Of a DNA stretch of 25,858 bases, positions 6,280 through 25,858 are shown one piece after another (the stretch's first letter is position 1; each line of letters begins with the position of its first letter). Below the pieces are notes generated by a model that saw only the letters and a program-made list of their open reading frames with translations, was not told where the DNA came from and searched no databases. The DNA is from a virus. Position numbers and translations under genes: made by a program. The stretch covers positions 1 through 25,858 of the IMG/VR virus record IMGVR_UViG_3300020385_000051; one strand, given 5' to 3'.

Positions 6280-6477
6280 ATGCGGTACGGTATGTCACAG
6301 CGGGAGGTTGCTAAAGAACTAGGCATCTCCCGCCAACGTGTAGTGCAGATCGAACACAAGGCGCTGTGGAAAATCAGGAAGTCAGGGTTGATGGACAAGT
6401 TCATTGACCTACTTGATGCGCCTGTCGAGGAATATTATGGTGAATCGTTTACAAATATAAAGTACAGAAAGGACTAG
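6280..6477 (+). CDS. Stand-alone sigma70 region-4-like HTH protein
   Basis: A 65-residue protein. Residues 5-34 (MSQREVAKELGISRQRVVQI... then EHKALWKIR) match sigma70 region 4.2, the helix-turn-helix that reads the -35 element: compare E. coli RpoD TLEEVGKQF-VTRERIRQIEAKALRKLR. The tail (LMDKFIDLLDAP) also parallels the RpoD end. All other sigma regions are missing, so it cannot act as a full sigma factor. It may bind core RNA polymerase or DNA and alter -35 recognition, or act alone as a regulator. GAGG lies 7 nt upstream of the ATG. Two promoters with an odd -35 follow downstream (6475, 10250). Family match is strong; role is inferred. Confidence 0.82.
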   Translation: MRYGMSQREVAKELGISRQRVVQIEHKALWKIRKSGLMDKFIDLLDAPVEEYYGESFTNIKYRKD

Positions 6478-13002: not shown

Positions 13003-13250
13003 AGATAGTAGAAGGTAAGTTTGGAAAGAAAGAAGACACAAGTATTAAAACATCTGAGTTTCTTGCAGCCCTAGCTATAAGAAGCTCTGAGTATGAGGAA
13101 GAAGAAAGACCAGTTAAGTGTGTTGTTATTATGTACGAAGACGGAGAAGTATTTGAAGTCACCGCTACAGAGCAATACCCAGATGGTGTATACTTACTTC
13201 TTGGATTAGCACAGGCCGCAATAGTACACGAAACTTTAGGGATAACTTAA
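12999..13250 (+). CDS. Hypothetical protein
   Basis: An 83-residue acidic protein from GTG 12999 overlapping the previous stop. N-terminal basic part (KIVEGKFGKKEDTSIK), central helix (TSEFLAALAIRSSEYEEEE, about 18-36), a likely strand pair (KCVVIMYEDGEVFEVTA) and a hydrophobic helix near the end (LLLGLAQAAIV). Not recognised. Its stop TAA shares an A with the reductase ATG, so it is coupled to nucleotide metabolism genes. Confidence 0.7.
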   Translation: MKIVEGKFGKKEDTSIKTSEFLAALAIRSSEYEEEERPVKCVVIMYEDGEVFEVTATEQYPDGVYLLLGLAQAAIVHETLGIT

Positions 13251-15121
13251 TGGACGCATATCAACAGTACATACACAAGTCACGCTACGCACGCTACCTA
13301 CCAGAAGAACAACGACGAGAGACATGGGAAGAAACAGTCAATCGTTACATTAACTATTGGGTAGACAAAGGACACCTCAACGACTTTGAAGTAACAGAAA
13401 TCTTTGATGCTATTAGTAAGCTGGATGTCATGCCTTCTATGCGGGCCTTGATGACAGCAGGAGAAGCACTGACGCGTGACAACGTAGCAGGGTTTAACTG
13501 TAGCTACCTACCCATAGACCACCCTAAAGCATTCGATGAGATGATGTACGTCCTCATGTGCGGTACAGGCGTAGGCTTCAGCGTTGAACGGCAGTACATA
13601 GCTAAACTACCAGACGTAGCGGAGACATTCCATGCAACCGACACAGTTATTAATGTTGACGATTCGAAGATCGGATGGGCGAAATCGTTTAGGGAGTTGG
13701 TATCATTGTTGTATTCAGGTCAAGTTCCCCGATGGGACGTTAGCGGAGTACGACCTGCAGGCTCCACGCTCAAGACTTTCGGAGGTCGTGCAAGTGGCCC
13801 TGAACCACTCGTCGATCTATTCAAGTTCACGATTGAACTCTTTCAAGGATCTGCTGGTAGAAAGCTTAGCTCCCTTGAATGCCACGATCTTTGCTGTAAG
13901 ATTGCTCAAATCGTCGTCGTTGGAGGGGTCAGGAGAAGTGCTCTCATCAGTCTCTCTAACCTCACAGACGATAGAATCAGACGAGCCAAGTCAGGACAAT
14001 GGTGGGTAGATAACCCTCAACGTGGGCTGTCTAACAACTCAGCCTGTTACACAGAGAAGCCTGACTTTGAGGCGTTCCTAAACGAATGGACTAGCTTATA
14101 TGAATCACGATCTGGTGAACGAGGTGTCTTTAGTAGAGTGGCAAGTCAAAAGCAAGCTGCACTCAACGAGCGAAGAGATGCTACCTATGATTTTGGAACT
14201 AATCCATGTAGTGAAATCATCCTCAGACCCTACCAATTCTGTAATCTGTCAGAAGTTGTGGTCAGGCCATCCGATACGCTCGCTAGTCTCAAACGAAAAG
14301 TACGCGTTGCGACTATCCTTGGAACTTTACAGGCTACCCTCACAGATTTCAGATACCTCCGAAGAATCTGGAGACTAAACACAGAGGAAGAGGCTCTGTT
14401 AGGTGTGTCACTGACAGGTATCATGGATCACCCAATGTTGTCTGGGCGTAAAGACAAAGCAAAACTCAAGAAGTGGCTAACGGAGATGCGTAATGAGGCT
14501 ATTGTTACTAATGAACAGTGGGCTAAGAAGCTGGGTATCAACCCTTCTACAGCAATTACTGCGATTAAGCCTAGCGGTACTGTTAGTCAGTTGGTCGATA
14601 GTGCTAGTGGGATCCATCCTCGGTATAGCGATCAATATATTCGGAGGGTTAGGGCAGACGCTCGTGACCCACTTTGCTCTGTCTTAGAGGACGCTGGTGT
14701 CCCTGTGGAGGACGATCTAATGTCCCCTAGTACAAGGGTATTCTCCTTCCCTATCGCATCTCCAGAGGGCGCTGTGACAGCCTCAGACATGGGTGCTATG
14801 GAGCAGCTAGACTTGTGGGAGATATATCAGGACTATTGGTGTGAGCATAAGCCGTCTATGACCTGCTACTACCGTGATGATGAGTTCCTTGAGGTAGGAC
14901 AATGGCTGTACAACAAGTTTGATAAGGTGTCAGGTGTTAGCTTCCTACCTTATTCAGATCACACGTACCAACAAGCACCATATGAACCTGTGGATAAGGC
15001 TACCTTGAAAGAACTTAAGAAGGGGTTCCCTACAGAGATATCGTGGGATATAGAAGAGGCCAGCGACATGACCGAAGGGTCACAACAACTGGCCTGTACA
15101 GGTAATAACTGCGAGTTGTAA
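13250..15121 (+). CDS. nrdJ: B12-dependent (class II) ribonucleotide reductase
   Basis: A 623-residue monomeric RTPR-type reductase that makes deoxyribonucleotides using adenosylcobalamin. Evidence: NCSYLPID (C84, first redox Cys), MCGTGVGFSVE (103-113), GGVRRSALISL (225-235), NPCSEI (318-323, with the thiyl-radical Cys at 320), FCNLSE with second redox Cys 331, and a C-terminal CTGNNCEL pair (C616, C621) for re-reduction by thioredoxin. Shorter than the Lactobacillus enzyme (739 aa), as usual in phages. Such genes are frequent in marine phages and tie infection to host or environmental B12. It ends the early operon, 8 bases before the convergent hairpin. Confidence 0.93.
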   Translation: MDAYQQYIHKSRYARYLPEEQRRETWEETVNRYINYWVDKGHLNDFEVTEIFDAISKLDVMPSMRALMTAGEALTRDNVAGFNCSYLPIDHPKAFDEMMYVLMCGTGVGFSVERQYIAKLPDVAETFHATDTVINVDDSKIGWAKSFRELVSLLYSGQVPRWDVSGVRPAGSTLKTFGGRASGPEPLVDLFKFTIELFQGSAGRKLSSLECHDLCCKIAQIVVVGGVRRSALISLSNLTDDRIRRAKSGQWWVDNPQRGLSNNSACYTEKPDFEAFLNEWTSLYESRSGERGVFSRVASQKQAALNERRDATYDFGTNPCSEIILRPYQFCNLSEVVVRPSDTLASLKRKVRVATILGTLQATLTDFRYLRRIWRLNTEEEALLGVSLTGIMDHPMLSGRKDKAKLKKWLTEMRNEAIVTNEQWAKKLGINPSTAITAIKPSGTVSQLVDSASGIHPRYSDQYIRRVRADARDPLCSVLEDAGVPVEDDLMSPSTRVFSFPIASPEGAVTASDMGAMEQLDLWEIYQDYWCEHKPSMTCYYRDDEFLEVGQWLYNKFDKVSGVSFLPYSDHTYQQAPYEPVDKATLKELKKGFPTEISWDIEEASDMTEGSQQLACTGNNCEL

Positions 15122-15129
15122 ATATTCAG

Positions 15130-15176
15130 GGACGTAGGAGAGTTTATTTAACTCCAGTTAAAACTCTTCTACGTCC
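15130..15176. terminator. Long convergent hairpin, probable bidirectional terminator
   Basis: GGACGTAGGAGAGTTT (15130-15145) pairs with AAACTCTTCTACGTCC (15161-15176): 16 pairs, one G-U on the plus RNA. The 15-nt loop holds most of palindrome copy 7. It sits between the reductase stop (15121) and covers the last codons (DVEEF) and stop of the opposing gene. There is no clear T-run on either side, so termination or RNA 3'-end protection is inferred. Confidence 0.65.
15147..15163 (-). promoter_or_regulatory. Palindrome copy 7, in hairpin loop
   Basis: On the plus strand TTTAACTCCAGTTAAA (15147-15162); read on the minus strand it is the GG form, preceded by one more T. It lies in the loop of the convergent hairpin at the joint end of both operons and includes the stop codon of the minus-strand gene. 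No start codon follows. Confidence 0.75.
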
Positions 15177-17500
15177 TTGAATCCTACCATTAAGTTAAGA
15201 CCTTTTTCTCTTACCTTTTGATTCCATTTCCTGTTATCTAACGACTGTAGCCAAGAAGCACCAAACCTTTTGTTACCCTCTTGGATAAACTCAGCTAACA
15301 ACCCTTCATTTACACCGGGGTGAGAAGCTCTAGACGCTTCGCGCTCTAGTAACCTTTTCTGCACAAAAGCGTCTTCGTTTTGAAACATTTGTGAAGCTAC
15401 TAACGCACCTAGCTGACGATCAACGTAAGGTAAAGTTATTTCTCTTAGCAAAGAAGTTTCTGCTGTGTTTAGTTTAATACCCATAAACTTAGAGTCAACA
15501 ACAGGAATATTAGCTTGTGTTCGGTAAATATAACGCTGTACTTCTGTTTGATTAGTAATAGGAGTTGCTTTAAGTTTAAGTATAATCTCCGCCCAATTAG
15601 ATTCTTTAGTGGACACCCCACTAACACGACTAGTATCTAAAGGTAGCTGTTCCCTGAGAAAAGGAATACGCTGTTGTACCTGCTCCATAGGAGTACGTGC
15701 TAGTCTTTCTTGTCCATCAATAATACGGGCCAAGTCTGATACACCAGTAGGTATAAAACCTTTAGAAACGTCAGTACCTAATTGTTTTAAACCGCCAGAA
15801 AGCCCTTGATTATTGTATCTAAAGTAATCTAAAAAACTAACTGCACTTTCTAAAACAGTTTTGTTTGCGGTGGCGTTTAGAAGCATTATGGCTGCTTCAT
15901 CTAATGCTACAGCCGCTTTGTTGTACTCTGGATCGTTTGGTTCATAATCCTTAAAACGCATAACCCCTTCCCAATAATCAGTGTACATACCAAGATAAGT
16001 ACCCATAGGCTCCAACCTATCGTAAGAAACGTAAGTACCGTCTATAAGAACTGATTTTTCAGGAATACCTGATTGTTGCCACAGCTTTCTTTCTTCAGCG
16101 TCTTTTGATGTTCCAGTTATAAAAGGCATACCATCTTCATTAGCGGTCATAAATAACACACCTAAAGGAAGCATAATAGAAGTACCTATAGCAACACGAA
16201 CTAAGTAGTCATCATAGTCTTGTATCTCATACACGACTTTACCTTCTTTCATTTTTTTCTTTAACTGTTTAGGACGCATAAAAGGAATCATAGCTATAGG
16301 AGTATATGACATTCCATCAACAGCAATGTTGTAAGGGGTTTTAGTAAAGGGCGTTTGGCTGGTTATTGTAGCAGCAGTAAGTTCTTCCCCGAGTGTAAAA
16401 CCTTTTCCTAATTTAGACTTTTCTCTATTAATACCGGCAATTATATTTGGGAGTCTTCTATGAAGAGGTGCATTAGGGTCTACTGGCAAACGCCGTTGGA
16501 AAGTCATGTTTAAAGCAAACTCACGTATGTCTTCATAAGGTATGTCTTCTTCAGAAAACAGATCCTTAAACATTTTGTTGCTCTTTTTTTCTAAAGCAAG
16601 TGAAGCCTGACGCACTGCCCTAAACCTTGCACCTTTTGTTTGCTCTGCAGCAAGTCCGTATTCACCTTGATACCTAGCATTATGCACATCCATAATTTCT
16701 TTAAAGTATTTAGCGTGTAATTCATCAACATATTTTTTCTCAGAAGAATCTGCAACAACAGAAGAGGCATCTTTAATAGCAAGCTTTCTAGCTGTTTCAG
16801 ACAGTTTAATTAGTCGAAAATATACTTTGGCTGATTCGTCAACAGCCACTGCAATTTTTTGTGGGATAGTTGTCCATCCCAAACCATAAGGAACTTTTTG
16901 ATTAGTCATAAACTCTATGTCAGTAAATATTCTTGACACTTCTTCATCTGTTAAATTAATAGAGTCTATAAACTTTTCAACATCAATGTCTTTTAAACTA
17001 GAGTCATTAGCGATCCAAGACTGTACGTAAATTTGTTTAGCTTGTTTTACAATTTCTTCTTTAGATACACCTCTTTGTCTAGCAATAAGATTAATGTCAG
17101 CAACATCAGAAGCTAATCCAGATTTTAAAGCCGCTGAAAAATATCTAGCCATGTTTGTCATAAGTTGAGCGTCTTTACCAAGCAAGGCGTAGTGAGCCGC
17201 CATAGTATTGACCACACCGTTTCTAATCATAGAATTGGGAACATACATACCTGCTTGACCCATTGCACTAAAAACATTAGCGACAAACATACCACTAGAA
17301 CCTAACATACTATTAGAATACAGACTAGTTAATGTTGACAAAACAGTCCATTCTCTAGTACCACCATTGTTTAAAATTGACCTTATAATATCAGGACGCA
17401 TTTCAACAAACTCGTCGGGTACAGAGTCAATAGCAGCTAACATTCTATCTACCGCTTCTTCGCATTCTTTTGATATAACTTTTCTAGCTTTTTTAGCCAC
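15158..17500 (-). CDS. Large internal virion / DNA-ejection protein candidate
   Basis: A 780-residue, mostly helical, Lys-rich protein and the last gene of the late operon. Position after two further virion-type proteins corresponds to T7 gp16. Residues about 375-405 (TSQTPFTKTPYNIAVDGMSYTP) recall an LPD38-like segment found in large phage polyvalent proteins; this is tentative. One hydrophobic stretch (434-452, VRVAIGTSIMLPLGVLFMT) might cross a membrane, as ejection proteins do. Start GTG at 17500 overlaps the preceding gene by 8 bases with GGGG just upstream. No lytic domain seen. Confidence 0.6.
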   Translation of the reverse strand: MAKKARKVISKECEEAVDRMLAAIDSVPDEFVEMRPDIIRSILNNGGTREWTVLSTLTSLYSNSMLGSSGMFVANVFSAMGQAGMYVPNSMIRNGVVNTMAAHYALLGKDAQLMTNMARYFSAALKSGLASDVADINLIARQRGVSKEEIVKQAKQIYVQSWIANDSSLKDIDVEKFIDSINLTDEEVSRIFTDIEFMTNQKVPYGLGWTTIPQKIAVAVDESAKVYFRLIKLSETARKLAIKDASSVVADSSEKKYVDELHAKYFKEIMDVHNARYQGEYGLAAEQTKGARFRAVRQASLALEKKSNKMFKDLFSEEDIPYEDIREFALNMTFQRRLPVDPNAPLHRRLPNIIAGINREKSKLGKGFTLGEELTAATITSQTPFTKTPYNIAVDGMSYTPIAMIPFMRPKQLKKKMKEGKVVYEIQDYDDYLVRVAIGTSIMLPLGVLFMTANEDGMPFITGTSKDAEERKLWQQSGIPEKSVLIDGTYVSYDRLEPMGTYLGMYTDYWEGVMRFKDYEPNDPEYNKAAVALDEAAIMLLNATANKTVLESAVSFLDYFRYNNQGLSGGLKQLGTDVSKGFIPTGVSDLARIIDGQERLARTPMEQVQQRIPFLREQLPLDTSRVSGVSTKESNWAEIILKLKATPITNQTEVQRYIYRTQANIPVVDSKFMGIKLNTAETSLLREITLPYVDRQLGALVASQMFQNEDAFVQKRLLEREASRASHPGVNEGLLAEFIQEGNKRFGASWLQSLDNRKWNQKVREKGLNLMVGFKDVEEF

Positions 17501-24692: not shown

Positions 24693-25858
24693 TTAAACAA
24701 TCCCGTCAAATAAATTTGTTTTTTGTGGAGGAGGGCTAAGACGGTCTTCAAGATTTAATAAACCTTGCGTCCAATCGCCTTGAAAAATTTCCAAAAGAGG
24801 AGGCACTGGTGGAGCATCATAACTAAGTAATTTTATGCTTCCTTTATAAGGGGAACGAGAAAGCATCCCTTCTTTTCCACTACCATCGCCGCTGCCTGTA
24901 CCATCACCGCCCTCGCCTTCTCCTGTACCGTCATCACCTTTACCGTCGCCATTTTCACCAGACTCACCCGACCCATCATTGCCGTCACCAGTTGTGTTCG
25001 GATCATCGCAATATTTATCGTAATAAATTTGACCAAACCCATATTCTTCTGGACGGCCTTCTGAACAAAGTTGATCTACAGAATCAGTTGGCGTTGTGTC
25101 TGAAGGAGTGTCAGTTGTATCTGTTGTTGCATCTGTTGTTGCATCTGTTGTTGCATCTGTTGTTGCATCTGTTGTTGCATCTGTTGTTGCATCTGTAGTT
25201 CCATCTGTAGTTGTATCTGTTGTTCCATCTGTTGTTGGAAGTGTTATGTTAGGCCAGCCAATAATATCTCTAGCGGGGTTATTAGTAACAATACACTCAC
25301 CGTCTTTTTTAACTCCTACATCTCCATTAGGCAGGCGGCAGGCGCTTCCATTGTCAGGATAATCTACAGTAGGTTCCTGAGTAGGGGTTGTTTCAGTTGT
25401 CGGGCCAGTTGCAGTACCATCCGCTGTGCTTTCAGTATCATCCCCTTGACCTTCGCCCTGATTATCACCACTAGTATCAGCATCATTGTTATTAGGGTTG
25501 TTTTCCCAAGGGTTAGAGTAAGTCCCATTATCCCAATCAATCTCTTGAGTTTGTCCGGTAGCAGAATTTTTAATAACCCAAACACCACTCTGGCCCCATA
25601 CCCCTGTACCAGAAACAACCACCCAGCCACCATACCCGTCTTCATCGTTCCATATGTCAGGGTTATTGTTAATCGGTACATCACCAGAGGGGCCAGTAAG
25701 AACAGGCCAGTTATTAGGATTTGAACCAGTGGGGCTACCACCTGAACTGCCAGAAGTATTAGATGGGGCGTCTGTTGTTGAGCTTGTGCTAGTTGAGGTA
25801 TCAGTAGAACTTGTATCGCTTGAAGTATCTGCGCTACTAGCACCACCACCACCCGCTT
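24693..25858 (-). CDS. Thr/Asp/Gly-rich low-complexity protein (5' end beyond window)
   Basis: The frame is open from the right edge to a stop at 24693, so the true start lies outside; a GTG at 25622 is in frame but not needed. At least 388 residues. From the edge: a Ser/Thr-rich stretch, a small domain with WNDEDGYGGWVVVSG and VWVIKNSATGQTQEIDWDNG, acid-rich linker, two cysteines (ACRLPNGDVGVKKDGECIV), TTDx repeats coded by a 12-bp tandem repeat, two more Cys (DQLCSEG, DKYCDD), a Gly/Asp/Glu-rich linker, and a Pro-rich end (SYDAPPVPPLLEIF). Not recognised; likely a virion surface or appendage protein with flexible linkers. Its place is upstream of the adaptor, where T7 has its capsid. Confidence 0.65.
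   Translation of the reverse strand, partial: AGGGGASSADTSSDTSSTDTSTSTSSTTDAPSNTSGSSGGSPTGSNPNNWPVLTGPSGDVPINNNPDIWNDEDGYGGWVVVSGTGVWGQSGVWVIKNSATGQTQEIDWDNGTYSNPWENNPNNNDADTSGDNQGEGQGDDTESTADGTATGPTTETTPTQEPTVDYPDNGSACRLPNGDVGVKKDGECIVTNNPARDIIGWPNITLPTTDGTTDTTTDGTTDATTDATTDATTDATTDATTDATTDTTDTPSDTTPTDSVDQLCSEGRPEEYGFGQIYYDKYCDDPNTTGDGNDGSGESGENGDGKGDDGTGEGEGGDGTGSGDGSGKEGMLSRSPYKGSIKLLSYDAPPVPPLLEIFQGDWTQGLLNLEDRLSPPPQKTNLFDGIV
25120..25239. repeat. 12-bp tandem repeat, ten units
   Basis: TCTGTTGTTGCA is repeated six times perfectly (25120-25191), followed by four units with one to three changes. On the minus strand it encodes T-T-D-A/G/T. The unit is a multiple of three, so copy-number change keeps the frame. 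Confidence 0.9.

Follow-up and report, generated by a model that had tools for sequence, protein, structure and literature searches.

How two converging operons end when almost no space separates them is the question raised by the junction described here. The window, a 25,858-base stretch of DNA, is a fragment from an uncultured phage. In a search of named phages, the DNA polymerases nearest to that of the window belong to marine Pelagibacter and Roseobacter phages and share 42–47% identity with it. Named phages, searched at both the DNA and the protein level, gave distant matches only, to the reductase and the DNA polymerase; neither the virion protein at the junction nor the small protein of its relatives had a match there, which left no cultured phage for the comparison. 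An open reading frame far from the junction, at 24693-25622, includes 12-nt tandem repeats at 25078-25269 that encode a TDAT-type repeat. A rightward operon ending with a ribonucleotide reductase gene meets a leftward operon ending with a virion protein gene, and 36 bases separate the two stop codons. The end of the virion protein was used as a search query, and its matches are referred to as L001-L007. The junction is composed of the following features:

13250-15121, + strand: gene of the B12-dependent (class II) ribonucleotide reductase (Pfam PF02867, PF21995), the final gene of the rightward operon, with its stop codon at 15119-15121.
15124-15145, + strand: 5' arm of the hairpin; it starts 3 nt past the reductase stop and repeats the virion gene end in inverted form; 22 of its 22 bases are paired.
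15148-15161, either strand: copy 7 of a palindrome, TTAACTCCAGTTAA, in the hairpin loop; a small gene, since lost from the window, uses this site for ribosome binding in L002-L007.
15161-15182, + strand: 3' arm of the hairpin; its opposite strand encodes, in frame, the last virion residues (FKDVEEF); the ancestral arm, homologous in L002-L007.
15158-17500, - strand: gene of an internal virion protein (PHROG 6651), with which the leftward operon ends in the window; its stop codon is at 15158-15160.

RNA of the + strand is predicted to fold into a hairpin just past the reductase stop, in which 15124-15145 form 22 consecutive pairs with 15161-15182, including two G.U pairs and no mismatches. This stem is the longest uninterrupted one in the window; the runner-up has 16 pairs, eight of which are G.U. 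The segment 15124-15182 also ranks first in local stability on each strand of the whole window, with a folding energy of -33.6 kcal/mol on the + strand (z -9.5, 0 of 200 shuffles) and of -25.7 (z -7.9) on the - strand, where two of the pairs become A.C mismatches. An earlier note on this DNA described a nearly perfect stem of 16 bp; the stem is real, however its length was underestimated. The placement of the stem where the two operons meet, the copy of the palindrome in its loop, and the origin of one arm from virion coding sequence and of the other as an inverted copy have all been borne out. The claim that a T-run is absent also stands: the + strand tail after the stem, CCTACCAT, has two U in eight positions. 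The hairpin is thus a stable stem-loop located immediately after a coding region, as is characteristic of intrinsic terminators; however, it lacks the U-tract. It is absent from the matches of a terminator scan, and an Rfam covariance-model search gave no match at the site, even at E <= 1.

The feature is best read, with a probability of about 0.68, as a 3'-end element of the rightward reductase operon, either a terminator or a 3'-end stabiliser. It can be inferred that the hairpin would define where the reductase message ends and limit antisense transcription into the virion operon. The very strong hairpin might stop RNA polymerase without a U-tract; alternatively, a Rho-dependent stop downstream might be followed by exonuclease trimming back to the protective stem. 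The choice between termination and 3'-end protection is the least certain part of the proposal, because the hairpin of the window has no U-run. Hairpin-protected 3' ends of transcripts that are Rho-terminated or lack the U-tract have been described in E. coli and Streptomyces (PMC8269248, PMC7815308). The element in the window resembles them in its stable stem, in the scarcity of U after it (fewer than three within 8 nt), and in the unstructured, pyrimidine-rich stretch downstream of the stem (+ strand, 15183-15260). A stable RNA 3' end, which the earlier note had listed among the options, is the best-supported role, and paired changes in relatives speak in its favor.

The relatives reveal what the junction looked like before the present hairpin. 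L001 shares 97% DNA identity with the window here and has the same hairpin. The window-type hairpin is absent from L002-L007, and a pattern search for further derived junctions found L001 alone; the derived form is known from these two sequences only. In L002-L007, a gene of 59–62 codons (MKDKDHTVSYTSIDYHSMCQRSK...) comes next after the virion stop, in the order stop TAA, CTGGAG, TTAAAA, ATG; in this clade, to which the window belongs, the palindrome serves the small gene as its ribosome-binding site. The small gene is missing in the window and L001. The + strand of L002-L007 has a separate strong hairpin just past the reductase stop, antisense to the small gene (for example TGCCTACGTCCTCTGGCTTATCCTTTGGGTCATGGGGCGTAGGTA). 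The small protein of 59–62 amino acids (HTVSYTSIDYHSMCQRSK...) is conserved, with no assigned function, and is encoded at L002:8573-8752 and 75 other loci; it was confirmed in 294 IMG/VR stretches, and had no match in a PHROG scan or among cultured phages. Two queries, the small protein and the end of the reductase, were used to gather further loci, and 131 distinct reductase 3' ends were obtained, 125 of them long enough for scoring. The small gene is the convergent neighbor in 76 of the 125 scored ends, and a 12+6-bp hairpin antisense to it is found in 76 of the 125; the loci are related by descent, and such counts do not represent independent events.

The mean best energy of the small-gene hairpin is -28.1 on the reductase strand versus -17.1 on the other strand. 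In 39 distinct hairpin sequences, 98.9% of the pair cells are occupied by standard pairs, and both sides have changed at three pairs, in eight cells. The covariation score is matched by 0 of 500 shuffles, and sliding the partners along reduces pairing to 29–48%. Within a set of 27 sequences, pairs are held in 501 of 513 cells on the reductase strand versus 367 of 513 on the opposite strand. Residues D34 and K38, which face each other in the stem, change jointly, C-G to U-A and the reverse. The codons of the small gene are restricted by position: mapped on the reductase-gene tree, synonymous changes per codon amount to 1.5 in the stem and tail versus 7.9 elsewhere (p = 1.5e-6), and the three loop codons, with 14, 6, and 10 changes, are freely variable. 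The codons of I29, P30, T31, P39, E40, D41, and V42 show zero synonymous variation in 60–68 sequences. Tail codons are biased as well, with E27 encoded by GAA in 49 of 51 sequences, G28 by GGA in 66 of 68, and I29 by ATA in 65 of 65; in the background of the reductase gene, GAA, GGA, and ATA account for 0.32, 0.26, and 0.49 of the codons of their own amino acids. In effect, a moderately U-rich antisense tail, UAUUCCUUC, suited to a terminator, appears to be kept. The sequence after the last pair is mostly UUCCUUC, which is not a classical U-run. Judged from these patterns, selection acts on the predicted hairpin at the junction of the relatives as reductase-strand RNA.

The location of the hairpin follows the end of the operon. 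Three cousins (L079, L081, and L134) have an extra rightward gene of about 380–420 codons between the reductase and the small gene, and their hairpin is positioned ~30 nt past the stop of the extra gene, not at the reductase end. As the hairpin follows the extra gene, it is a mark of the operon end and not of the reductase gene. The start of the extra gene overlaps the reductase stop. Eighteen cousins with an intergenic gap have a canonical GC hairpin with a T-tract, starting 5–7 nt past the reductase stop, and the hairpin of the cousins reads plainly as a predicted terminator. Some cousins have a four-base overlap between the opposing gene and the reductase stop (L093-L098, L107, L145, L158, L162, L166, L171, and L178), and in these, other strong hairpins of the reductase strand are located in the opposing coding end. 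The hairpin of L093-L097, in the opposing virion coding end within the first 100 nt past the reductase stop, is followed by TTTTT or TTTTTA, and that of L098 contains a double change from a C-G to a U-A pair. The recurrent element is a predicted hairpin of the reductase strand at the convergent end, formed by several unrelated sequences; judged across the cousins, the hairpin is dispensable in its sequence, not in its position.

The element resembles an intrinsic (Rho-independent) terminator in that a stable hairpin directly follows the last stop of the operon, at the same position as the canonical terminators of the 18 cousins. However, the form in the window has no U-tract and a 22-bp stem in place of the usual shorter GC stem, and the ancestral hairpin has a weak U-rich tail only and is embedded in the opposing gene. 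Terminators inside coding regions are known from arfA and brfA (PMC8012679). The E. coli genes mscL and arfA are convergent with overlapping 3' ends (PMC10070815), and the phage junction shares with them a 3' UTR that is the complement of the end of the opposing coding sequence. By contrast, the hairpin of arfA acts in the sense message and gives rise to a non-stop mRNA (PMC8012679), whereas the pairing in the phages is selected in the antisense, reductase strand.

It remains to be explained how the window came to have its own hairpin. Its 3' arm is homologous to the virion coding end in L002, and its 5' arm has no counterpart in L002-L007; one arm is an inverted copy of adjacent ancestral sequence, as expected from a template switch. 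The R1 covariance model, built from 39 relatives, matches L002, L079, L081, and L134 at 76–80 bits and has no match in the window or L001. Because the ancestral model misses the window, functional replacement is suggested by position, not by homology. The inverted copy probably arose through a replication template switch, with fold-back at the self-priming palindrome, together with the loss of the small gene. The core of the 5' arm, GGGACGTAGG, is common to the window and the corresponding arm of the older hairpin of L002, and it may be speculated that a remnant of the older hairpin served as the switch point. The idea that the arm is a mere leftover of the older hairpin was not adopted, as only an inverted copy would account for 22 nt of pairing with the virion end, and no homology is found by the covariance model. 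Template switching is documented as a one-step source of RNA hairpins (PMC8794818), and the case described here shares with the documented ones an inverted copy of adjacent sequence and a perfect stem formed in one event. It differs in involving a phage, a palindromic ribosome-binding site, and gene loss, and its direction is deduced from relatives, with the intermediates not seen.

The same origin would also be compatible with a mutational by-product, in which template switching at the palindrome left two very closely related phages with an inverted copy that has no function. The near-perfect inverted copy, the documented precedent for one-step creation of hairpins, and the restriction of the derived form to the window and L001 are all in line with this explanation. 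It is nevertheless unlikely, since a hairpin is kept at the same place in essentially all cousins with a convergent neighbor, and since pairing of the RNA survived divergence of the arm: the window and L001 differ at 3 of 22 arm positions (14%), compared with 33 of 624 third positions of the reductase gene (5.3%), and all three arm changes keep the + strand pairs. Because 10 of the 22 possible transitions in the arm would keep a pair, the chance of three out of three is about 0.09, which makes this observation weak on its own; it agrees with the strand bias seen in the relatives. The check for paired changes that the earlier note had proposed thus came out in favor of the stem, both in L001 and in the hairpin of more distant relatives, which has compensatory changes.

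A 3'-end element of the reductase operon leaves the end of the virion operon to be accounted for. The virion strand has a hairpin of its own:

15052-15096, - strand: reciprocal hairpin in the 3' coding end of the reductase gene, a candidate terminator of the virion operon (-22.3 kcal/mol, z -5.1).

On the virion strand, this hairpin is followed by the U-rich sequence UCUUCUAUAU, and the terminator scan has a match at 15073-15058. Among the codons that form it, GGCC at -20 and -9 from the stop is strongly biased in the relatives and others are not, a pattern that tracks phylogeny. If the virion strand uses the element at 15052-15096, the two operons would seem to end inside each other. Ju et al. 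are said to have reported in 2019 that bidirectional terminators are pervasive, and a single hairpin could in principle end both operons, as the - strand of the junction hairpin folds well, at the energy given above, and its tail begins with AUUUAC. Such a truly bidirectional terminator is improbable here: the - strand stem has two A.C mismatches, relatives keep the pairing on the + strand only, and the virion strand has the separate hairpin with its U-rich tail. The proposal that the site sits at the end of both transcripts is therefore doubtful.

The palindrome in the loop, TTAACTSSAGTTAA, has seven exact copies in the window:

2528, 3368, 4166, 5092, 7054, 11174, and 15148: start positions of the 14-bp copies.

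With up to two mismatches allowed, the motif has 19 matches compared with 2.65 expected, and no shuffle reached 19. Four genes of the window have the palindrome TTAACTGGAGTTAA as their ribosome-binding site. The sequence TTAACTGCAGTTAA is part of the reading frame of the primase-helicase gene and of that of the exonuclease gene and encodes LTAVK in each of them, and in five distinct exonuclease gene sequences the motif is invariant, with variable synonymous sites in its flanks. A third coding copy is present in a virion gene of L003. In a scan of IMG/VR contigs L180-L254, TTAACTGGAGTTAA followed by ATG was found in at least 119 stretches, with two to four copies in several of them (L185, L202, L228, and L248), so the palindromic ribosome-binding site is widely used in the phage group.

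The repeated motif could point to a protein road-block, in which a phage or host protein bound to the palindrome in the loop, as at the six other copies, halts both polymerases, with the stem being secondary. The seven exact copies and the preservation of the nucleotide motif in coding genes despite the variability of flanking synonymous sites would fit a binding site, as would the presence of a gene for a small helix-turn-helix protein at 6280-6477. This 65-residue protein, encoded on the + strand, is similar to sigma-70 region 4 and is a candidate palindrome binder. However, in L002-L007 the junction palindrome serves as ribosome-binding site for the small gene, the palindrome is missing from the junction in most relatives that keep the hairpin, and selection for pairing on a single strand would not be expected of a DNA site. 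The road-block mechanism put forward in the earlier note is thus quite improbable, and the hairpin can be accounted for without it. It is very unlikely, though conceivable, that the 3' end is regulated, with a phage protein that also controls the other six copies of the palindrome binding the loop and, whenever it is made, switching read-through between the reductase and virion operons on or off; the ancestral junction would have achieved this through two separate elements, the palindromic ribosome-binding site and the antisense hairpin, which were then fused in one template switch. A DNA-level palindrome or cruciform was rejected as the main explanation, as the asymmetry between G.U and A.C favors one RNA strand.

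A 3'-end element of the reductase operon is the reading that the relatives favor, and its history seems to include two new aspects: an antisense hairpin that fixes codons of an opposing small gene throughout a phage group, and the replacement of this hairpin by template switching after gene loss. The junction is a clear natural example of a terminator-like hairpin that is encoded antisense to an opposing gene and constrains its codons, and the example extends across a large group of uncultured marine phages. After the loss of the small gene, the place of the old hairpin appears to have been taken by a new one, copied from the neighboring gene. The case makes it possible to test how converging operons are insulated in compact phage genomes and whether template switching supplies new functional RNA hairpins. 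It also calls for caution, as the conservation of codons in small phage genes may reflect RNA encoded by the opposite strand.
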